DNA from: Lactobacillus sp. PV012
GTDB taxonomy: Bacteria > Bacillota > Bacilli > Lactobacillales > Lactobacillaceae
Length of the DNA stretch: 64,000 bases
Assembly: GCF_014522325.1 (NCBI RefSeq)
Contig: NZ_CP041983.1
Location: 744,001 to 808,000 of the forward strand
Direction: 5' to 3'
Of the stretch, positions 7,383 to 63,010 are shown in pieces. Under the pieces are notes generated by a model, which was given only the letters and a program-made list of their open reading frames with translations, searched no databases and was not told the origin of the DNA. A program made the translations under genes and the position numbers. How positions within the stretch are numbered: position 1 is the first letter of the stretch; each line of letters begins with the position of its first letter.

Positions 7383-9068
7383 ATGGAAAAGAAAATATAT
7401 GGAGCAGATATTATCATAGATAGCTTAAAAAAACATAATATTGATCTTGTTTTTGGTATTCCTGGAGCAAAGATTGATCGTTTATTTGAAGCTTTAGATG
7501 GGAAAGATAGTGCAGACTCCCCTCAATTAATAGTAACTAGACATGAACAAAATGCAGTTTTTATGGCTCAAGCCTATGGGCGCTTAACTGGTAAAACAGG
7601 AGTAGCTATTGCAACCTCTGGTCCGGGAGTAGGAAACTTGACTACTGGATTGATGACTGCTGATGCAGAGGGAGATCCAGTTTTAGCCATTGGGGGCCAA
7701 GTACAAAGAAAAGATTTGTATCGTGCAACTCACCAATCGACTCCTGCAAAGCAATTAATGGCTCCAATTACACAATTTAGTGCAGAAATTCAAGATCCCA
7801 ATAATATTTCTGAAACAATGGCCAACGCAATCGAAGCAACGCAAAATGCACCTAAAGGAGCAGCTTTTGTTAGTTTGCCACAAGACATTGACGATGCAAT
7901 TATTACGGAAAAGCCTCTTCCTGTCTATCCTTATCCTAAAATGGGACCAGCAGATCCAGCAGATTTGAAGAAGGTTGTTGAATTAATTAAGGAAAGTAAA
8001 TTGCCAGTTATTTTAGTGGGGCAAAGAGCTGGAGATGAATCTTCAACAAGGGCGTTGCGTAAACTATTAGATAAGTTTCCTTTTCCTGTCGTAGAAACTT
8101 ACCAAGCAGCTGGAGTTATTTCAAGAAAGTTAGAAAAAGATTCTTACTTTGGTCGTGTAGGATTATTTAGAAACCAAGTAGGAGATCGGCTTTTAGCAAA
8201 AAGTGACCTAGTATTGGCAATTGGGTATGATGCAATTGAGTATGAGCCTCGCAATTGGAATAAAGAAGGAAACTTACGAATTATTAATTTGGATAGTGTT
8301 CCGGCTCAAATTGATAATAACTATACACCAATGATGCAATTAGTTGGGAATATCACTACCAGTTTAAAACAATTAACTGATCTTTTCTGTGATGAGTGTT
8401 ACTCATATCCAGATAGTAGTAAGAAGCTGTTAGCTGATTTCAAAGCAGAACTTGATAGAGAAATTGAAGTTCCGAAGCAGACCAAGCCGACAAAGTCCCA
8501 TCCCTTAGCAATTGTTAAGGCCATTCAAAATAATGTTAATGATGATACTCATGTAGCTTTAGATGTAGGTTCACATTATATTTGGATGGCGCGTTACTTT
8601 AGAGCTTATCAACCAAGACATTTATTAATTTCAAATGGAATGCAGACTTTAGGAGTAGGTTTGCCATGGGCAATTGTCGCTGCTTTACTTTATCCAGAAA
8701 GAAAGGCAGTTGCGGTTTGTGGAGATGGGGGCTTTATGTTTTCAGCCGCCGAGTTGTCAACTGCAGTTGAACATAATTTGAACTTGGTAACTATTGTTTG
8801 GAATGATGGCGGGCACTATGACATGGTTAAATTCCAAGAAGAATTGAAATATCCACAAGCTGCAGGAGTAAACTTTGGTGAAGTAGATATTGTAAAATTT
8901 GCAGAAAGTTTTGGAGCAACAGGGATGCGAGTTAATAAGCCGGAAGAACTAAATGAGGTTTTAAAGCAGGCTTTTTCTACAAAGGGTCCTGTAGTAGTTG
9001 ATGTTCCAGTTGACTACTCCCATAATAAAGAATTAGCGAAAAACTTGATTGATTCTCAATTAGGATAG
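7383..9068 (+). CDS. alsS: acetolactate synthase, catabolic (AlsS)
   Basis: This 561-residue ThDP enzyme condenses two pyruvates to 2-acetolactate plus CO2 in the cytoplasm. Visible hallmarks are the N-terminal GIPGAKIDRLFEAL, the catalytic Glu in VTRHEQNAVFMAQAYGRLTGK, the SGPGVGNLTTGL loop and the ThDP/Mg motif GDGGFMFSAAELSTAVEHNLN...WNDGG. No small regulatory subunit is nearby and alsD follows after 18 nt, so it serves acetoin formation (pyruvate overflow and acid tolerance) rather than valine synthesis. The Shine-Dalgarno is GAGGTG. Confidence 0.95.
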   Translation: MEKKIYGADIIIDSLKKHNIDLVFGIPGAKIDRLFEALDGKDSADSPQLIVTRHEQNAVFMAQAYGRLTGKTGVAIATSGPGVGNLTTGLMTADAEGDPVLAIGGQVQRKDLYRATHQSTPAKQLMAPITQFSAEIQDPNNISETMANAIEATQNAPKGAAFVSLPQDIDDAIITEKPLPVYPYPKMGPADPADLKKVVELIKESKLPVILVGQRAGDESSTRALRKLLDKFPFPVVETYQAAGVISRKLEKDSYFGRVGLFRNQVGDRLLAKSDLVLAIGYDAIEYEPRNWNKEGNLRIINLDSVPAQIDNNYTPMMQLVGNITTSLKQLTDLFCDECYSYPDSSKKLLADFKAELDREIEVPKQTKPTKSHPLAIVKAIQNNVNDDTHVALDVGSHYIWMARYFRAYQPRHLLISNGMQTLGVGLPWAIVAALLYPERKAVAVCGDGGFMFSAAELSTAVEHNLNLVTIVWNDGGHYDMVKFQEELKYPQAAGVNFGEVDIVKFAESFGATGMRVNKPEELNEVLKQAFSTKGPVVVDVPVDYSHNKELAKNLIDSQLG

Positions 9069-30224: not shown

Positions 30225-31424
30225 GTGAAAAAGCTGCTTAAAGGAATTAAATTAAAACTCTATCCTAATATGGTCCAACAAGAACAATTAGACTTAATGT
30301 TTGGTAATGATCGCTTTGTTTGGAACCAAATGTTAGCCATGATGAATAAACGTTATGAAAGCAACAAGCAGTTACCTTTTTTAGGAAAGTTCAAACTTAA
30401 TTACTTGCTAAAACCCTTGAAAGTAGAATATCCCTTCTTAAAACAGAGCGATTCTTCTAGTTTGCAAGTTATAAATGAATTTCTAACGCAAGCCTGGAAG
30501 AACTTCTTTAATGATAAGACAGGCAAGATTGGTAAACCAAAGTTTCATTCTCGTAAGTACTTGCGGCAATCATATACGGGAAAATCCACAATTAAAGTAG
30601 CTGCTAAAAGATACTTAAAGCTTCCTAAGTTAGGATATATAAAAGCTAGTAAAACTAACCTTTTAAAGAATTGTAAAATCAAGCGTTACACCCTTAGTCT
30701 AGAACCTAATGGAAAATATTACATTGCTTTGCAAGTTCAAGTACCAGAGCTGAAGCAGTTCCCAAAAACAAATCAAGCTGTTGGCATTGATGTTAGTTTA
30801 GCTAACTTAGCGATCCTATCTGATGGAACAAAATACCATTCATTTAATGGTAGCTATTTTGAAAAGAAAGCAAAAAGTTGGCAGAGAAAGTATTCAAAAC
30901 GTAAATATCAAGCTCAAGTTTTAGTAGCTCAAGATAAGAATCGCCAGGTGTTAATTCCAAGAAGTTTAGAAAGTTTCAAAAACTGGCAAAAAGCTCAGAA
31001 ACAAAAAGCAGTCTATCAAGCAAAAATAGCCAACCAGCGCAAGGACTACCTACACAAGTTGACTACAAAAATTGTCAAGCAATATGATGTGATTGTAATT
31101 GAGGATTTGAAAACCAAGAATCTTCAAAAGAATCATAAACTAGCTAAGTCGATTTCAAATGCTTCATGGCGTATATTTAGAACAATGCTTGAATATAAAT
31201 GTCGCTGGTATGGAAAAGAGTTGATCACTGTTGATCCAAGAAATACATCAAGAATTTGCTATACTTGCAAGTTTAACAGTGGTGAGAAAGGCTTAGAAGT
31301 GCGTGAATGGACTTGTCCAAACTGTCATGTTCATCACGATCGAGATATTAATGCGGCAGTTAATATCTTAAATAAAGGTAAATCAAAGCTAAATGGTCAG
31401 GGACTGGCCGTGGTAAATAGCTAA
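30225..31424 (+). CDS. tnpB: TnpB, RNA-guided endonuclease of an IS200/IS605-like element
   Basis: The roughly 399-residue protein has the complete TnpB layout: N-terminal KGIKLKLYPNMVQQEQLDLMFG, RuvC Asp in AVGIDVSLANLAIL, Glu in VIVIEDLKTKNL, a zinc finger (CYTC...CPNC) and the final Asp in HHDRDINAAVNI. All three catalytic acids are intact, so it should be an active guide-dependent nuclease. No TnpA transposase is adjacent, making this a solo element. The start is uncertain: the GTG at 30225 overlaps its own AAGGAGG, while a CTG at 30234 has good spacing and would give the usual LKGIKLKLYP start. Confidence 0.92.
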   Translation: MKKLLKGIKLKLYPNMVQQEQLDLMFGNDRFVWNQMLAMMNKRYESNKQLPFLGKFKLNYLLKPLKVEYPFLKQSDSSSLQVINEFLTQAWKNFFNDKTGKIGKPKFHSRKYLRQSYTGKSTIKVAAKRYLKLPKLGYIKASKTNLLKNCKIKRYTLSLEPNGKYYIALQVQVPELKQFPKTNQAVGIDVSLANLAILSDGTKYHSFNGSYFEKKAKSWQRKYSKRKYQAQVLVAQDKNRQVLIPRSLESFKNWQKAQKQKAVYQAKIANQRKDYLHKLTTKIVKQYDVIVIEDLKTKNLQKNHKLAKSISNASWRIFRTMLEYKCRWYGKELITVDPRNTSRICYTCKFNSGEKGLEVREWTCPNCHVHHDRDINAAVNILNKGKSKLNGQGLAVVNS

Positions 31425-32179: not shown

Positions 32180-33043
32180 ATGAAAGTTGGTTTTATTGGT
32201 ACCGGAGTAATGGGTACTGGAATTATTAATAATTTGCTTAAAGCAGGGAACGAAGTAACTGTTTATAATCGCACCAAGGCTCATGCACAAGAAGTGCTTG
32301 ATAATGGCGCAAAGTGGGCGGATAATCCTGCAGATGCTACTAAAAATAATGATGTAGTTATGTCAATGGTGGGATTCCCACAAGATGTTGAGCAGATTTA
32401 CTACGGTCAAAATGGAATTTTAGCTGCAGCAACTTCTAAGCAAGTTTTGGTAGAAATGACTACTAGTAAACCTTCTTTAGCACAAAAACTAGATAGGGAT
32501 GCTCGAGAAAAAGGCTTACATATCATTGATGCACCAGTTTCAGGAGGAGATATTGGTGCTAAAAATGGTACCTTAACGATGATGGTTGGTGGAGATAAAG
32601 TAGATCTAGAAAAAATCACACCACTTTTGAAGCAATTTAGTAGTCAAATTCATTACTTTGGCTCTGCTGGTAGTGGCCAACATGCAAAAATGGCAAATCA
32701 AATCATGATTGCAGGTACTATGACTGGAATGAGTGAAATGCTTGCTTATGCTAAAGTAGCTAATTTAAACCTCCAAGAAGTAATTAAGACTGTTTCAGGA
32801 GGAGCGGGAGAAAATTGGAGTTTGAGTAATTATGGGCCCCGGATTTTAAGAAATGATTATACTCCTGGATTTTTTGCTAAACATTTTTTGAAAGACTTGC
32901 GGATTGCTCTGGAAGAAGCAGAAAAGATGAAGTTGAATTTGCCTGCTACTAGGGATGCCAAACGCCTTTATGAGGTTTTGGTAGATGAAAAGGGGCTTGG
33001 TAATGACGGAACGCAAGCCTTAATCGAGCTATGGTGGAAATAA
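32180..33043 (+). CDS. NAD(P)-dependent beta-hydroxyacid dehydrogenase (GarR/HIBADH family)
   Basis: The 287-residue protein begins with the Rossmann motif GFIGTGVMGTGI and continues with the substrate motif DAPVSGGDIGAKNGTL and the catalytic Lys in GQHAKMANQIMIAG, all diagnostic of the 3-hydroxyisobutyrate/tartronate-semialdehyde reductase family. Length is normal. The substrate is not deducible. It has an AAAGGAG site and is followed by a hairpin that also covers the ribosome-binding site of the recombinase gene. Confidence 0.88.
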   Translation: MKVGFIGTGVMGTGIINNLLKAGNEVTVYNRTKAHAQEVLDNGAKWADNPADATKNNDVVMSMVGFPQDVEQIYYGQNGILAAATSKQVLVEMTTSKPSLAQKLDRDAREKGLHIIDAPVSGGDIGAKNGTLTMMVGGDKVDLEKITPLLKQFSSQIHYFGSAGSGQHAKMANQIMIAGTMTGMSEMLAYAKVANLNLQEVIKTVSGGAGENWSLSNYGPRILRNDYTPGFFAKHFLKDLRIALEEAEKMKLNLPATRDAKRLYEVLVDEKGLGNDGTQALIELWWK

Positions 33044-33081
33044 GAATTTGATAATAGAGAGACTAAAATAATTGCAAATCT

Positions 33082-33134
33082 AAAACCTCTTTGAAAAATA
33101 GTTAATGTGACTAATTTATTCAAGGAGGTTTTTT
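33082..33134 (+). promoter_or_regulatory. terminator-like hairpin that sequesters the recombinase Shine-Dalgarno
   Basis: AAAACCTCTTTGAA (33082-33095) is complementary to TTCAAGGAGGTTTT (33119-33132) over 14 bp with one G-T pair. The right arm contains the AAGGAGG of the recombinase gene and is followed by TT. It could both end the upstream transcript and block translation initiation at 33137. Confidence 0.7.
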
Positions 33135-33136
33135 AT

Positions 33137-34069
33137 ATGTCACGAAAAAAGTACAGTACAAAGTTGTTTTACAAGTATTATTTGGACTGGATTCATCTCT
33201 ATAAAGAGAATGCAATTCGTCCAGTTACCCTGGATAAGTATTACCTTGTTCAACGCACTTTAAAGGAAATTGCTCCAGAGCTACATATGAATGAACTAGA
33301 TCGTAAAAGCTATCAAAATTTGCTTAATATCTATGCACAAACTCATGAAAAAACAACTACGCTTGATTTCCACCATCATTTAAAAGCTAGTCTATTTGAT
33401 GCAGTAGATGACGGCATAATTAAAATGGATCCTACCAGAAGAGCAATTATTAAGGGAACTGTAACGAAGAAGAAAAGACCAAAGTTTCTTAATCTTTTCG
33501 AACTTCAAATTTTATTAAGATCACTAAACTTAGGATCAGAATTAAATTGGGACTGGTTTATTCTCTTAGTTGCAAAGACTGGTCTGAGATTTGCCGAAGC
33601 TTTAGCCTTAACGCCAGAAGATTTTGATTATGAAAAACAAAGTATTAAAATCAACAAATCTTGGAATTATAAAGAAAACGTTGGTCATTTTCAACCAACT
33701 AAAAATCCATCATCTAATCGAATAGTTATGGTTGATTGGCAGATAATGCAACAATTTAAGCAATTAACAGAAAACAAGATGCCAAAGAAGCCAATCTTTT
33801 TTGAAGAAAATCAGAGAGTATATAATTCAACTTTAAATCAGCGTTTAGCATCTTATTGTAAAAAAGCTGGCATTCCCCCAATTTCAATTCATGGATTAAG
33901 ACATACACATGCATCATTATTACTTTATGAAGGTGTGTCAGTAGCAAGCGTTGCTAAACGGTTAGGCCATTCAAATACAACTACTACTCAAGAAACCTAT
34001 ATTCATATTATTCAAGAATTAGAAAATAAAGATAATGATAAAATTTTGTACCACTTAAGAAAACTATGA
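33137..34069 (+). CDS. tyrosine recombinase, probable DNA invertase of the tdc switch
   Basis: I start at ATG 33137 (MSRKKYSTK), which has AAGGAGG 9 nt upstream. The 310-residue protein has a SAM-like core-binding domain (about 15-110) and a catalytic domain with the full tyrosine-recombinase set: Arg in TGLRFAEAL, HGLRHTH, LGHSNTTT and the nucleophile in TQETYIHI. It is shorter than typical phage integrases and appears to lack the N-terminal arm-binding domain; there is no excisionase, attachment site or phage gene nearby. It converges on the decarboxylase operon whose 5' end is inverted 3.2 kb away, so it is the natural candidate for the invertase (inference). XerC/XerD housekeeping functions are unlikely. 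Confidence 0.85.
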   Translation: MSRKKYSTKLFYKYYLDWIHLYKENAIRPVTLDKYYLVQRTLKEIAPELHMNELDRKSYQNLLNIYAQTHEKTTTLDFHHHLKASLFDAVDDGIIKMDPTRRAIIKGTVTKKKRPKFLNLFELQILLRSLNLGSELNWDWFILLVAKTGLRFAEALALTPEDFDYEKQSIKINKSWNYKENVGHFQPTKNPSSNRIVMVDWQIMQQFKQLTENKMPKKPIFFEENQRVYNSTLNQRLASYCKKAGIPPISIHGLRHTHASLLLYEGVSVASVAKRLGHSNTTTTQETYIHIIQELENKDNDKILYHLRKL

Positions 34070-34110
34070 TTATTTCTATTCTGTAGATAATATATCCTCT
34101 TAATTATGCA

Positions 34111-34146
34111 AAAACTCGTAAGTTCTCAACTAAACTTACGAGTTTT
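34111..34146. terminator. bidirectional terminator between recombinase and permease
   Basis: AAAACTCGTAAG/CTTACGAGTTTT stem between the convergent recombinase (plus) and decarboxylase-permease operon (minus). Confidence 0.85.
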
Positions 34147-34156
34147 ATAGGATTTT

Positions 34157-35578
34157 CTAATTTTTCTTTTCTTGCTGGGCCATTAGTTCATTAACTTCCT
34201 GTGTCCATGAATCTTTGTGAAAATGTACAATAACAAATGGTAAAACAGTAAGGATAATACTAATGACTGCTACAATAATAAAGTTTAACCAAGTTCCTAC
34301 AGCAAAAGTAGCAACTAGAGCAACAATTATTGTAGCAATTAATAATAGACCGATAAACCAAGTCATACCTAAATTTCCAACTTTGAAAGGACGTTTTAAA
34401 TTTGGCTCTTTAATTTTTAACCTAATAAATCCAACTGCCATGAAGATGTAAACAATGCAATAGAGAACAGTAGTTGCATTTACTAAATCAAGAAATGCTG
34501 TATTAATCGCAGGAATTAATAGATACACTAACGCAAAAAGGGAGATAATAGTTGCTTGTGTAAATAGAATAGTGTGCGAATCACCGAATTTATCAGTCTT
34601 CCAAAATTTAAATTTGGGTGGATAAAGACCTTGTTGGGCGCTAGAAACAATCGTCTTACCTGGTCCTGAAGCCCATGCAGATAGTTGAACACTTACTCCA
34701 ATGAAAACCATAATACTAAAAACATTAGCAATCCAAGAAGGGAGACCCAAAATTTTATCATAGATGATAACAGGTTGGACAATATTATTTAAGTCGATTG
34801 CAGATGGAGAAACAACAGCTGCTTCTAAGAAGCCATTAACAGTATTTAAAAGAAACATAAATACTAAAGTTACTAAAACTCCAATTGGATAAAATGAAAC
34901 TTTTTTAAGTCTAGTAATATAGACTGAAGACATTTCAATTCCAGTAAAAATAAATATTATTGGCGAAAAGAACTGCAGTGATTTCATATCTGTAGGATCT
35001 GGCCATAACTTATCTACAGAAAAGTGACCTAAAATAGCTGTAGGATGAATTCCTGTTTTAATGACTGCAATAATTCCTAAAATTGTCATAATCGCAAGTG
35101 GGATATAAATACCTAGCCATGATCCAACTTGTCCTGTTATTTTAGCCATATCAAACTTCATATTCAAAAAAGTGATTATCCAATAAACAACTAAAATTAC
35201 AATTAACGTAAAAATATTGTTAGTTCCCAATTTTGGTTGATTAATTGCAGTAGCTAATAAAGGAGGAAGGGCAGAGGCAACCATTACCATTCCAGGAAAC
35301 ATCTGTACCCAAAGTAACCAAGAAGTTGCAAAGCCAAATTTCTGTCCTAAAGAATTGTTAACCCATAATTCAGGACCACCTTTTTGTGGGAATGCACTCC
35401 CAAACTCACCAGCAATTAAACAAATTGGTAAAGCAAAGAGCAAAGTAGCAACAGCCATGTAGAAAAACATTGTCCAGCCACTACCAGCAACATCGGGAAT
35501 ATTACGAATACTTGCTGCTAGAGCTACTGTCATCCCTATGAAAGTAATTAATCCAACTTTTGATGTCTTACTTTTCAT
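34157..35578 (-). CDS. APC-family amino acid/amine exchanger, partner of the decarboxylase
   Basis: The 473-residue protein has about 12 membrane segments and resembles the glutamate:GABA-antiporter-like branch of the APC superfamily (LITFIGMTVALAASIRNIPD, AGEFGSAFPQKGGPELWV, GIEMSSVYITRLKK). It starts 15 nt after the decarboxylase stop, so the two are one operon. Such decarboxylase-exchanger pairs swap external amino acid for the internal amine and consume a proton, giving acid resistance and proton-motive force. It would be switched together with the decarboxylase by the invertible promoter. Substrate (tyrosine/tyramine) is inferred from the enzyme. Confidence 0.88.
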   Translation of the reverse strand: MKSKTSKVGLITFIGMTVALAASIRNIPDVAGSGWTMFFYMAVATLLFALPICLIAGEFGSAFPQKGGPELWVNNSLGQKFGFATSWLLWVQMFPGMVMVASALPPLLATAINQPKLGTNNIFTLIVILVVYWIITFLNMKFDMAKITGQVGSWLGIYIPLAIMTILGIIAVIKTGIHPTAILGHFSVDKLWPDPTDMKSLQFFSPIIFIFTGIEMSSVYITRLKKVSFYPIGVLVTLVFMFLLNTVNGFLEAAVVSPSAIDLNNIVQPVIIYDKILGLPSWIANVFSIMVFIGVSVQLSAWASGPGKTIVSSAQQGLYPPKFKFWKTDKFGDSHTILFTQATIISLFALVYLLIPAINTAFLDLVNATTVLYCIVYIFMAVGFIRLKIKEPNLKRPFKVGNLGMTWFIGLLLIATIIVALVATFAVGTWLNFIIVAVISIILTVLPFVIVHFHKDSWTQEVNELMAQQEKKN

Positions 35579-35593
35579 AAATTAATACACTTT

Positions 35594-37257
35594 CTATAGA
35601 ATTTCGTTTAATTTCTTTTCCATTGACTTTGCAATTCCTTTTGAATAGAAATCAAAGAGTTTGTCATCATTCAAGTAAGGTGTCATAATAGCAGCTCTCA
35701 AAAGGGTTACTTCACCAACTTTATTCCATTCATCTTCAGTAAAGCCCATCTTTTCAATAAATGGAACAGGAGATTTGCCATAAGTGCCTTTTCTAAAGAT
35801 AGTATGTGAGGTTAAGAAACGATTTTCGTAAACATGACTGTCATAAAATGAAGAAAAATCAAATACTTTTTCATTAAGGGCATTGGTTTTTGCTAAATCA
35901 GTTTCGCCATCAACTTTCAATACCCAATCCACCATATTAAAATCTGGATTATCAAGAGGATAGACACTCACTGTTTTTCCTTTAACATTGAATTTAAGAT
36001 TACTTAAGAAATCTCTAAATCTCTGGGCTGCTTCCATAGATGAACCTACTAAACGTCCATATCCAGTTACGTTAAGTGGTAGTGTGCGGTGTGCGGCCCA
36101 AACTGCAGCTGCAGTAGCACCTGCTTTGGAACCACCAATAATGTACGAACCTAACATATCTGGTAGGGATGCGGTTTTCTTTTCAAAAACATATGGAGCA
36201 AAGTAAGAAATGGCATTTCTCATTGCCAGGTGTTTAATTGCAATCCCACCAGCTGCATATGGAACATAACCCATCTTATGAGGGTCAACTGTAACTGATT
36301 CTGCCTCTTTAATCGCTTTAAAAGCGTTATAGACATGCTTAGAAATCTTGACAGGATAATTAAAGACATCGTGTTCTTTTAATAAATCTGCTAGTTGATC
36401 ATATTCAACATAATTGCCATTTTCATCTTTAAATAAAGCTCGACCGTAACCACCGTATGCAGCATCAACGTGAAGGTAGAAGTAGACACCTTGTTTTTCC
36501 ATTTCTTGCCGGAATTTAACAATTCGGTCTACTTCATCTATTTGACCTTCTTCAGTAGTACCAACTACTGCTACTACTCCTAAAATTGGAATCTTTTTAG
36601 CAGCTAAATCTTTGATGGTTTGTTCCAAGACATCAACGTCCATCCTAAAATCACTTTTAACTGGAATTTGGACCATTTGGTCAAGACCCACACCAGAAAT
36701 ATCAAGTGCTTTTAACCAAGAGTAGTGTTTAGTATAAGGAACAATAAATTTACCCAATTTTTGAATGTTTTTACCACTTCTAGAAGAGTGGGCCTTAACT
36801 TCAGTAATTTGTTCTGGAGTTAAAGTAGCCATAATTTTTAATACATCTTCAACAGACATATTAAGTAATTCCCATTCGCTCATTCCTTCAACTTTTTCGG
36901 GAACTACTTCCTTAAAAGCAAGTGGTAAAGATTTGAATTGACGAGCATACCACATTCCTTCAAGATTTGCCATCGAACCGTCATGAGTAATATGGCCCCA
37001 GCCATCTTTATAATCAAATAATTTTGCAAAGTCTTCACCAACTTCTGCTTCCATCTTAGAAGTAGCCATTGAAGATTCAAGGGCAACATTGTTTGAATTC
37101 CAAAGCATTGCATAACTATAAGCAATCATTGCAGGAGCTAGGGTATCAGAGTTCATCTGGCCCCAATAACGGCCAGCTGACATCCAAGGAACGGTCCCTG
37201 GTCTTAAGCGACGATCTAATTCAGTTAATACTTTATGTTGTCGTTCCTGCGAAACGA
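35594..37257 (-). CDS. tdc: tyrosine decarboxylase-type enzyme, 5' end missing in this orientation (OFF)
   Basis: This PLP-dependent group II decarboxylase matches bacterial tyrosine decarboxylases along its length: [33 protein letters not shown] in which THDGS resembles the usual VADGS, AHSSRSGKNIQKLGKF, HVDAAYGGYGRALF, the PLP Lys in VDPHKMGYVPYAAGG, and GSKAGATAAAVWAAH. The first in-frame ATG (37183) lies inside the conserved core and has no Shine-Dalgarno. Upstream of it the frame reads RQHKVLTELDRRLRPGTVPW and runs into the 15-bp repeat at 37243-37257. The missing 65 codons are inverted at 37401-37595; after inversion the product is 614 residues, the usual family length. As sequenced the gene is not expected to be expressed. 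Confidence 0.9.
37243..37257 (-). repeat. left inverted repeat of the tdc switch (IRL)
   Basis: On the minus strand this reads TCGTTTCGCAGGAAC, identical to the right copy. Within it GTTTC-GCA-GGAAC is itself a partial dyad, like a recombinase core site. Confidence 0.9.
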
Positions 37258-37338
37258 AAATTTTTAAATAATAATTTTTCTCTACTACTTATGTGCCATT
37301 TTAACAATAAATTTACCTTCCAAAAAAGGGCATATTAT

Positions 37339-37366
37339 TTGCAATTAATCTTAATGAGATTATGCT
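37339..37366 (+). promoter_or_regulatory. promoter inside the invertible segment
   Basis: TTGCAA (37339-37344) and TATGCT (37361-37366) are 16 bp apart, about 35 nt upstream of the tdc start codon. It now drives only the truncated 68-codon frame; after inversion it would read into the whole tdc-permease operon. Confidence 0.6.
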
Positions 37367-37400
37367 TAAGGTGTTAGTAAGTTACTGAAAGGAGTCAAAA

Positions 37401-37607
37401 ATGACTAATAAAAAAGATGTAAATTACAAGTCACTTTTTATCGGTGATAAAGCTGAAAATGGTGATAAGTACCTAGATGAATTAACACATTTAATTCATG
37501 AACATTTGGGTTGGCGAAAAAATTATCTACCAGGTGATTTACCCGCAATTACTGATGATGACAAGTTAAAACAAGAATATATCGTTTCGCAGGAACAAAT
37601 AAATTAG
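37401..37607 (+). CDS. inverted N-terminal fragment of tyrosine decarboxylase (68 residues)
   Basis: ATG 37401 has a good GAAAGGAG site. Residues 1-65 (YKSLFIGDKAENGDKYLDEL, EHLGWRKNYLPGDLPAI) match the N-terminus of bacterial tyrosine decarboxylases; after the 15-bp repeat the frame continues only as QIN and a stop supplied by flanking DNA. In this orientation it would yield a non-functional peptide. It is the 5' exon-like part of the gene on the opposite strand at 35594-37257. Confidence 0.88.
   Translation: MTNKKDVNYKSLFIGDKAENGDKYLDELTHLIHEHLGWRKNYLPGDLPAITDDDKLKQEYIVSQEQIN
37582..37596 (+). repeat. right inverted repeat of the tdc switch (IRR)
   Basis: TCGTTTCGCAGGAAC on the plus strand, inside the reading frame as codons I-V-S-Q-E. 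It is an exact inverted copy of 37243-37257. Confidence 0.9.
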
Positions 37608-37650
37608 CATCTCTAATAAAAGTAAATTTTATTGGGAATGCTTTTATTTT
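37606..37650 (+). terminator. terminator just outside the invertible segment
   Basis: AGCAT and AATAAAA pair with TTTTATT and ATGCT around a short loop, followed by TTTATTTTT. It begins 10 nt after the right repeat, so it would end transcripts from the inverted promoter before the reductase gene. Confidence 0.7.
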
Positions 37651-37708
37651 TACAAAAAATAAAAAAGTAGTATGCTAGTCTAAAAACATGCTATGGAGAT
37701 TAAAAACA

Positions 37709-39049
37709 ATGAAAAAATATGATTATATTATTTTAGGAACTGGTCCTGCAGGATATGCTCTAGCTAAGAAATTATCAGCAGCTGGTAAAAGTATTCTGGC
37801 TGTTGAAGGTGGTTTATTTGGTGGTACTTGTCCTAATGTAGGATGTGAGCCCAAAATCTTCTTAGAAGGGACGGTTCACACTGCATTAATGACGCAACAA
37901 TTAGTGGGACACGGATTAGTACAAGAAGCTAAAATTGACTGGCAGGAATTAATGCAAAATAAAAAGAAACGCTTTGATTCTTGGCCTGAAGAAACAAAAG
38001 CTATTTTTTATAAACTAGGCGATGTAGCTGAAGGTTACGGAAAATTTGTTGGCAGTCATACTATTGAAGTTAATGGTGAAAAATATGAAGGCAGTAAAAT
38101 AATTATTGCTACCGGAGCGCATCCTCACAAAGTTCATTTTCCTGGTGATGAGTTAACTCATACCTCTACAGATGTATTATCTTTAGATAATCTCCCTAAG
38201 AAAACAACAATTATTGGTGGTGGCTATATTGGTATGGAACTGGGAACTTTTTTAGCTGCAGCTGGTAGTGAGGTGACTATTTTAGTACGTTCAGATAGAG
38301 TCTTACGTAACTTTTATCATGATTATACTGTGCAACTCGTAGATGAAATGGAAAAAAGAAATATTCATATTCGTTTATTTACAGAGATAGCTACCCTAGA
38401 GAAGACGACAAATAAAAAAGAATTAATAATTACTACTAAAGATGGTTCAAAAATTGAAACGAATTATGTTATAGATGCTAGTGGACGACAACCTAACGTA
38501 GAAAGACTTAACTTAGATGAAGTGGGAATTAAGTATTCACAGCATGGAATTGAGGTAGATGATCACTTAGAGACTAGTATTAAAGGGATATATGCCATGG
38601 GGGATGTAACTAGCCAAAAACTTCCAAAATTAACCACTGTTGCTGAAAGTGAAGCTGACTATCTCTTTAATTTACTTGAACAAAATATCAATATTCCTTA
38701 CTATAAGCCAGCCATTGGGACAGCAGCCTTTACTTTTCCTGAAATTGCCCAAGTAGGCCTTAATCCAGAGCAGGCTAAACTTTCTTCAAGTCAATATAAA
38801 ATTGAAGAACATAATCTGCAAGGTAGTAGTCTTTATGCTGGACTTAATGAAAAGCCAGCAAAATTAATACTAGTGTTTGACAAACATAATAAATTAGTTG
38901 GAGCAAGTGAAATTTCAGCAACTGCTGCTGATGATATTAATAATTTTGTACCAATTATTGGACTAGGATTAACTAAAGAAGAATGGGTTAAAAAGGTTAT
39001 CCCAATCTATCCAGCACTTGCTGATAAAGTTGGTGGTTTTCTGAAGTAA
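37709..39049 (+). CDS. class I pyridine nucleotide-disulfide oxidoreductase (glutathione-reductase-like)
   Basis: I start at ATG 37709 (MKKYDYIILGTGPAG), with GGAG 10 nt upstream. The 446-residue flavoprotein has the FAD motif GTGPAGYALAKK, the redox pair in GGTCPNVGCEPK, the NAD(P) motif GGGYIGMELGTFLA and the second FAD motif YAMGDV. The C-terminus reads VIPIYPALADKV where functional disulfide reductases have HPTxxE, so the catalytic His-Glu pair seems to be missing. The NADPH-dependent target may therefore be unusual or the enzyme may be an FAD-dependent transhydrogenase or quinone reductase (inference). Length is normal. Confidence 0.85.
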   Translation: MKKYDYIILGTGPAGYALAKKLSAAGKSILAVEGGLFGGTCPNVGCEPKIFLEGTVHTALMTQQLVGHGLVQEAKIDWQELMQNKKKRFDSWPEETKAIFYKLGDVAEGYGKFVGSHTIEVNGEKYEGSKIIIATGAHPHKVHFPGDELTHTSTDVLSLDNLPKKTTIIGGGYIGMELGTFLAAAGSEVTILVRSDRVLRNFYHDYTVQLVDEMEKRNIHIRLFTEIATLEKTTNKKELIITTKDGSKIETNYVIDASGRQPNVERLNLDEVGIKYSQHGIEVDDHLETSIKGIYAMGDVTSQKLPKLTTVAESEADYLFNLLEQNINIPYYKPAIGTAAFTFPEIAQVGLNPEQAKLSSSQYKIEEHNLQGSSLYAGLNEKPAKLILVFDKHNKLVGASEISATAADDINNFVPIIGLGLTKEEWVKKVIPIYPALADKVGGFLK

Positions 39050-41487: not shown

Positions 41488-41847
41488 ATGAAAAAATTTG
41501 AATTTAGCTATTATAACGAAAAAGAATTCGAAGAGTTTTTAGATAAACTGCCAGTTAAAGAAATGGAAAAATTAATTCTTCGTATTTCTAACATTGAAGA
41601 AGCAGGTTTTAGAATTTCTAGTAGACAAAAGTGGACAAAAAAATTAGTAGGATATGTTAATTTATTAGAAATTAGATCTAATTTTTCTAATGACATAATT
41701 AGAGCATTATTTTTTCACAGCTCGACTGGTCAATATGTGATTACCCATGCCTTTAAGAAAAAATCACAAAAAACACCACTATCAGAAATAAATAAAGCTC
41801 TTTCAAGAATGAAGGATTATGAGAAGAAAAATGGAGGAAAAGACTAA
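41488..41847 (+). CDS. RelE/HigB-type toxin (Gp49-like)
   Basis: The 119-residue basic protein has the RelE/ParE-superfamily pattern of Gp49/HigB toxins: a helical N-terminus (EKEFEEFLDKLPVKEMEKLILRI), KWTKKLVGYVNLLEIRSNFSNDIIRALFFHSSTG, and HAFKKKSQKTPLSEINKALSRMKDY. Such toxins cleave mRNA on the ribosome. The stop overlaps the antitoxin ATG by one base. Toxin-first order is typical of hig systems. No good Shine-Dalgarno precedes the ATG and the -10 is only 7 nt away, so the mRNA may be leaderless. Confidence 0.85.
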   Translation: MKKFEFSYYNEKEFEEFLDKLPVKEMEKLILRISNIEEAGFRISSRQKWTKKLVGYVNLLEIRSNFSNDIIRALFFHSSTGQYVITHAFKKKSQKTPLSEINKALSRMKDYEKKNGGKD

Positions 41848-42122
41848 TGAGTTTTGCAGATAGATATATTGCTAAAAAAATAAAAGAAAATCCAGCCCTT
41901 AAATCTGAATTTGAACAAGAAGATTTGAATTTGAAAGCAAGTATTCTAGTGAGAGATATGCGAGATGATCTCGGAATGACGCAACAAGAATTTGCAAATT
42001 ATATAGGTAAACCTCAATCGACTATTAGTCGAATTGAATCAGCTTCAATGAATGTAAGTATGGGATTACTTTCTGAAATTGCAAGGGCAGCGCACAGGCA
42101 AATTAAGTTAGTTTTAATTTAG
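41847..42122 (+). CDS. HigA-type XRE antitoxin
   Basis: The 91-residue protein carries an XRE helix-turn-helix (VRDMRDDLGMTQQEFANYIGKPQSTISRIESA). It is translationally coupled to the toxin (TAATG) and has its own strong GGAGG site 9 nt before the ATG. Separate initiation should keep antitoxin in excess. It probably binds the toxin and represses the operon at the dyad 41462-41479. Confidence 0.88.
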   Translation: MSFADRYIAKKIKENPALKSEFEQEDLNLKASILVRDMRDDLGMTQQEFANYIGKPQSTISRIESASMNVSMGLLSEIARAAHRQIKLVLI

Positions 42123-62637: not shown

Positions 62638-62666
62638 TTGAAATCTTATTTAATTTATTTTATAAT
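62638..62666 (+). promoter_or_regulatory. near-consensus promoter of the small RNA
   Basis: TTGAAA (62638-62643), 17 bp, TATAAT (62661-62666). It reads toward a 90-nt region bounded by an intrinsic terminator. Confidence 0.8.
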
Positions 62667-62672
62667 TGTAAA

Positions 62673-62761
62673 AGAAAAGGAGCTAACGAGTGCCAGTCGT
62701 TAACTCCAATCGTAACTTGAATGACTGAATAGTTAGCTAATCCTTGTGATTAGCTTTTTTT
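62673..62761 (+). ncRNA. candidate small antisense RNA (type I antitoxin-like)
   Basis: From a strong promoter (start about 62673) the transcript would form the hairpin GGAG-AACGA/TCGTT-CTCC (62679-62707) and end at AGCTAATC/GATTAGCT plus seven T (62735-62761). No open reading frame is evident. It is fully antisense to the 3' part of a minus-strand transcript encoding a small hydrophobic peptide. Confidence 0.6.
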
Positions 62762-62838
62762 GTTATTGCATAAGCCTTTGCACAACTCACTAAGAATTTA
62801 CCTAGTGCATTGAGTGCAATAGCAGAAGCTATTTGCAA
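62737..62838 (-). CDS. 33-residue hydrophobic peptide, candidate type I toxin
   Basis: The minus-strand frame starts with TTG 62838 and reads QIASAIALNALGKFLVSCA and then KAYAITKKANHKD: one hydrophobic helix with a basic tail, as in many type I toxins. Its 3' end is covered by the small RNA at 62673-62761. The minus transcript could end at the 62707-62679 hairpin, which on that strand is followed by TTTTCTTTT. The start codon and ribosome-binding site are weak, so this is tentative. Confidence 0.4.
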   Translation of the reverse strand: MQIASAIALNALGKFLVSCAKAYAITKKANHKD

Positions 62839-62873
62839 GGAAGCCTACTTCTCCAGTCTATTCCATGTGGCAT
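62829..62873 (-). CDS. 14-residue possible leader peptide of the toxin-like gene
   Basis: ATG 62873 has an excellent GGAGGTGAGAGCC ribosome-binding site and encodes MPHGIDWRSRLPCK before a stop that overlaps the start of the hydrophobic frame. It could couple translation into that frame, or simply be a ribosome-loading site. An upstream GGCTACACACCCCTC segment may partly pair with the ribosome-binding site. Confidence 0.35.
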   Translation of the reverse strand: MPHGIDWRSRLPCK

Positions 62874-63010
62874 GGCTCTCACCTCCGTAACTGAAAATAG
62901 GTTGAGGGGTGTGTAGCCATCCAAAGTTACTAAATCATCGGTTAGCTAAACCAATGACCTAATAATATTGTAACAAGATGATAAACAAAAAGCGATCAAA
63001 TTTTGAAGTG

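Follow-up and report, generated by a model that had tools for sequence, protein, structure and literature searches.

Lactobacillus sp. PV012, one of two gut Lactobacillus species with such a locus, probably flips a piece of its own DNA to turn tyramine production on and off, as judged from sequence. The DNA analyzed was a stretch of 64,000 nucleotides, referred to here as the window. We hold with high confidence that it carries a phase-variation switch, in which a neighboring recombinase would invert 354 bp and so toggle both expression of the tyrosine decarboxylase (tdc) and antiporter (tyrP) genes and the output of tyramine. The assembly holds the segment in the OFF orientation. The features of the locus are as follows:

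33137 to 34069, plus strand: tyrosine recombinase gene (Phage_integrase, PF00589), convergent with tyrP and the candidate for the invertase; a GTG at 33107 is an alternative start
34157 to 35578, minus strand: tyrP-like gene for a tyrosine/tyramine antiporter, following tdc; its NF040513 score of 523 bits falls short of the cut-off of 630
35594 to 37257, minus strand: body of tdc, severed from its 5' region and start, with the first in-frame ATG at 37183 (ORF reading, profile search)
37243 to 37257, minus strand: body-side arm of the inverted repeat, TCGTTTCGCAGGAAC as read on the minus strand (repeat search and in-silico inversion)
37243 to 37596, no strand: invertible segment, 354 bp, OFF in the assembly (in-silico inversion and the Lactobacillus rodentium ON/OFF pair)
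37258 to 37400, plus strand: 5' non-coding region of tdc within the segment, 143 bp, with a putative promoter (short stretches common to L. rodentium)
37401 to 37607, plus strand: 5' end of tdc in detached form, with 65 of its codons followed by three tail codons (QIN) and a stop codon (ORF reading)
37582 to 37596, plus strand: N-side arm of the inverted repeat (repeat search and in-silico inversion)

The original prediction had placed 15-bp inverted repeats at 37243-37257 and 37582-37596, and its coordinates were right. The two arms are complementary at 15/15 bases, and the flanking base is mismatched on either side. The exact 15-mer has two copies in the whole 1.54-Mb assembly (96% complete), both at the arms of the tdc segment. 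A perfect inverted 15-mer pair with a spacing of 45-500 nt and at least 8 G/C was found once in the window and in none of 60 simulated second-order Markov windows. Without the G/C condition, such a pair was present in 7 of 40 first-order Markov draws and, therefore, the repeat by itself is modest evidence. The main weight is carried by the exact in-frame placement of the arms at the break in the gene, which is beyond explanation by chance. The prediction had also claimed that inversion rejoins the gene exactly in frame to 614 residues, and this was reproduced by a scripted inversion, which fused codons 1-65 on the plus strand (37401-37595) to the minus-strand body and gave a protein of 614 aa with its stop at 35594. 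This joined ON protein scored 905.4 bits with the tyrosine decarboxylase profile TIGR03811, narrowly above the cut-off of 905.3, compared to 805.2 for the 529-aa OFF body and 63.1 for the 68-aa N piece.

Both orientations were then found in a relative, the comparison that had been proposed as a check. In L. rodentium DSM 24759 (locus L018), tdc is split as in the window, and the order is detached N part, body, tyrP, recombinase. The computed inversion product of L018 is identical at 614/614 residues to a public protein, P0001 (614 aa, named L. rodentium, encoded on a 173,355-bp contig). Therefore, the sequences of L. rodentium fit both orientations, as expected of an inverton, with OFF seen as DNA and ON at the protein level only. 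The L. rodentium ON form scored 891.8 with TIGR03811, slightly below the cut-off. Five near-identical public proteins of 544 aa (P0005-P0009) are of the OFF type, and P0006 alone of these bears the name L. rodentium. All of these came from the best 120 of 1028 matches in the protein search. Among the same 120, the window's own species was found as OFF only, its OFF body corresponding to P0004, a cluster of 19 members taken as a cluster rather than individually. The detached N piece of L. rodentium is catalogued as a database protein of its own, P0242. A third such piece, P0241, differs from those of the window and L. rodentium; it is 69 aa long and ends in VSQEQITN.

Assemblers may in general be misled by short inverted repeats, and the split gene could reflect an assembly error at the repeat. 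This is extremely improbable, since the separate assembly of L. rodentium has the same split and the third N piece exists. Sequencing reads are also usually much longer than 15 bp.

It is also very unlikely that the inversion is frozen, with the gene disrupted by a single event and now in decay in these lineages. The sole readable copy from the window's species is OFF, as a frozen inversion would have it, but the L. rodentium sequences fit both orientations and a matching base change is found in both arms. The L. rodentium arms match at 13/15 bases, 10 of them consecutive, and the 10-bp core TTCGCARGAA reads TTCGCAAGAA (A) in both arms of L. rodentium and TTCGCAGGAA (G) in both arms of the window. 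One species-specific base common to both arms is as exchange between the arms would predict, and we take it as suggestive, no more. Selection also argues against decay. Between the window and L. rodentium, dN/dS was 0.053 for the N part of tdc, 0.027 for the body, 0.045 for tyrP, and 0.130 for the recombinase. dS was above 1.2 for both tdc parts and tyrP, with values of 1.26 for the N part and 1.45 for the body. These values indicate that both tdc halves, as well as tyrP, are under purifying selection. Such low dN/dS would not be expected of a gene locked in two pieces. The original interpretation of the locus as a switch is thus supported by the L. rodentium ON/OFF sequences, by purifying selection, and by a linked recombinase gene in two species.

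Among the 38 tdc loci of the contig collection, the N part and body are on one strand in 36 and on opposite strands only in L018; the contig of L053 ends before the N part. A further split tdc was sought in the 37 loci besides L018 (one being cut before the N part) and none was found. Of 397 Lactobacillaceae genomes, 30 had a tdc match and 29 were counted, with G107 left out since its match spans 109 residues only. The gene was split in the window's genome and that of L. rodentium, in contrast to the 27 others, where it is unsplit. The search across the genus found tdc in 8 of 75 genomes. An inverted 13-base pair across the tdc start was found at 1 of 30 loci scanned (L052).

The 5' region within the segment was compared to that of L. 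rodentium. TATTATTTGC (37333-37342) and the ribosome-binding site GAAAGGAG (37387-37394) are common to both species, and the region is otherwise poorly conserved save for short stretches. A consensus promoter of at least 9/12 was sought in 37258-37400 and none was found; L. rodentium has one 9/12 site in its 5' region. Of the promoter and ribosome-binding site that had been predicted within the segment, the latter is present and the former is likely, although weak by consensus. L. rodentium has a two-way terminator beyond its OFF peptide (7442-7471), and the same scan found none in 37150-37800 of the window. Because of this empty scan, OFF transcripts might read through into the oxidoreductase gene at 37688-39049. 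Rfam gave two weak matches in 33000-38000, which were judged to be chance, and no match at gathering score in the whole window.

We also considered that OFF might produce an N-truncated decarboxylase from an internal start, with a different role, making tdc a two-isoform gene. ATG 37183 does open a 529-aa frame in the OFF body, and the databases hold 544-aa proteins for the OFF form of L. rodentium. Still, we give this very little credence since the OFF body is without its 5' region and P0001 can be aligned with solved decarboxylase structures (7cwx) starting at its residue 4. This alignment indicates that the N part belongs to the decarboxylase fold.

The gene at 33137-34069, which the original prediction overlooked, is likely to encode the enzyme of the inversion. 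The recombinase has motifs of the active-site type at residues 148, 252, 276, and 287, which we take to have active-site roles. Its gene adjoins the tdc-tyrP operon in the same orientation in the window and in L. rodentium, and the two proteins are 69% identical. Other recombinases are on hand since the window's genome has nine Phage_integrase (PF00589) rows, this gene included. The switch could be real and driven by one of the others, with the neighbor a bystander left from a former hsd locus. We regard this as unlikely, since L. rodentium shows the same linkage and orientation of recombinase and tdc, and its locus lies elsewhere in the chromosome. Moreover, among the 38 tdc loci, a recombinase match in the fetched flanks (at most 8 kb, and far shorter on small contigs) was found at L018 alone, which is also the sole split locus. 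Two further points on the side of the bystander, the flanking genes and the recombination sites, are taken up below.

The relatives of the recombinase suggest where it came from. Matches at E 1e-60 or better were present in 21 of 75 genus genomes, at 22 places. Wider stretches were fetched for 20 of these, and 18 were scanned for repeats that enclose the recombinase gene. At all eight loci whose recombinase is 78-94% identical to that of the window, the recombinase is spanned by an inverted repeat that includes GCAACGAAAA; one of these eight recombinases (G058) has an internal stop. Methylase_S (HsdS) genes flank the recombinase on either side in each of the three of these eight loci that were scanned with Pfam. 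The window's recombinase thus falls in the group of hsdS-associated invertases, whose close kin are linked to inverted hsdS copies. Since these kin are flanked by hsdS genes that are inverted relative to each other and carry short repeats, an hsdS-type invertase seems to have been recruited to a metabolic gene. The recombinase also matched 2002 phage records, two at 60-80% identity and the others lower. PADLOC gave no match for it. A plasmid search in 'near' mode gave no match.

The surroundings of the locus bear on whether the module moves. The only block of matching DNA between the window and L. rodentium is 33069-37604, at 79% identity. L. rodentium carries homologues of both genes that flank the window's locus on contigs other than that of its module, which therefore has a different chromosomal location. 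Genome G044 has homologues of these flanking genes, which occupy 32180-33043 and 37688-39049 in the window, at 564.9-565.8 kb and 541.9-543.2 kb, respectively, and the stretch between them holds an hsdRMS-recombinase locus. It is this neighborhood that would fit a bystander left from an hsd locus. The recombinases of the window and G044 are 94% identical, compared to 79% and 76% for the two flanking-gene proteins. The tree pairs the window's recombinase with the hsdS-linked one of G044 (96/95) and not with that of L. rodentium. The tree goes against a common ancestor for the two recombinases linked to tdc, which we had considered; their union was not rejected by the AU test (p 0.094), which leaves a single origin neither shown nor rejected. 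We infer from these comparisons that the module is mobile and has exchanged its recombinase with hsd loci or acquired it from them.

We also asked if the tdc site itself could have been captured from hsdS. The tdc arms, CAGGAACGACAA, resemble the hsdS sites, CAGCAACGAAAA, and the likeness is not significant, which leaves site capture as an idea only and is the second point that would suit a bystander. The best 15-base comparison had 5 mismatches, with 0.07 expected by chance over 40 offsets (uncorrected, several tries); the expectation was 0.34 for the N arm and 0.44 to 2.5 for the remaining pairings, also uncorrected. Methylase_S matches in the window's genome are at 535-536, 675-676, and 829 kb, and the recombinase is at 777-778 kb. 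Five site patterns run on these three regions gave one match. The hsdS match nearest to the switch, at about 48 kb, is in L114 (G000:C1:820001-838000). This region also matches the neighborhood of the hsd locus in G044 at many points and may be a fragment displaced from an earlier hsd locus.

The switch can be compared to several known systems. PsrA, the hsdS invertase of Streptococcus pneumoniae, is required for inversion at the 15-bp repeat IR1 (PMC4948785), and the tdc arms are of the same length. In both hsdS inversion and the tdc switch, a tyrosine recombinase is encoded at the locus and short repeats lie in coding sequence. hsdS inversion exchanges specificity domains, whereas inversion at tdc would join or sever the gene of a metabolic enzyme and its 5' end. 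Unlike in hsdS systems, no Methylase_S match of the window's genome is near the switch. Invertible promoters, or invertons, were reportedly described by Jiang et al. in 2019. They share with the tdc switch a segment between inverted repeats (matching at 15/15 bases in the window and 13/15 in L. rodentium), a likely promoter region inside it, and a recombinase nearby. In contrast to them, the tdc segment also holds the start codon and 65 codons and, therefore, flipping splits tdc itself. Chanin et al. are said to have described intragenic invertons in 2024. As in these, an arm of the tdc switch lies within coding sequence and the flip alters the encoded product. The original prediction had called the inversion intragenic, and this was right for one arm, which is within the coding sequence in ON (codons 61-65). 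The other arm precedes the start codon in ON, unlike in intragenic invertons, which have both arms inside one coding sequence, and by its anatomy the tdc switch is all-or-none. The inverton work of Jiang et al. is cited in PMC11868660, and the term gene-intersecting invertons occurs in PMC11892184. The gene order agrees with tdc-tyrP operons of lactic acid bacteria, with a TIGR03811 decarboxylase followed by an antiporter gene. An open-access literature search gave no title on a phase-variable decarboxylase among the matches listed, and printed inversion catalogues may include the locus.

In the mechanism that we propose, the neighboring tyrosine recombinase would bind both 15-bp repeats and invert the intervening 354 bp. 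In ON, the 65 codons of the segment would continue in frame into the body, preceded by its promoter and ribosome-binding site, tdc and the downstream tyrP would be expressed, and tyrosine would be converted to tyramine and then exported. In OFF, the promoter would point outward and yield only a 68-aa peptide, with the tdc body and tyrP separated from promoter and start. From sequence, we infer catalysis by the neighboring recombinase, the position of the promoter, the silence of OFF, and the tyramine phenotype. A broader reading is possible, and we hold it only tentatively: the recombinase, tyrP, and split tdc could form a transferable switch module, in which an invertase that shuffles hsdS captured a site within a decarboxylase gene and now phase-varies the output of a host-active amine, and the OFF promoter, facing the oxidoreductase gene, could make it a two-way metabolic switch.

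Other features of the window were also noted. By eye, an ORF at 30225-31424 resembles a TnpB-type transposon protein, and two small adjacent ORFs at 41488-42122 resemble a toxin-antitoxin pair of the RelE/HigA kind. An intergenic region of about 320 bp (62661-62976) is a repeat in the genome, with 6 matches counting itself and short fragments, and was matched in 34 of 75 Lactobacillus genomes. It has no Rfam match at gathering score and no ORF of at least 60 aa over the region, and it is a candidate for a repeated non-coding RNA or a small mobile element.

The best-known cases of phase variation concern surface structures and restriction systems. The switch would put a metabolic enzyme with a host-acting product, tyramine, under phase variation. 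Enterococcal kin of tyrosine decarboxylase break down levodopa. The tdc switch suggests a route by which the recombinase of a restriction locus may be recruited to a new gene. Activity at such a locus could not be predicted from gene content, since a genome may hold all of the gene and still be OFF. In the annotation of L. rodentium, the OFF form is represented only by a truncated decarboxylase plus a hypothetical peptide.
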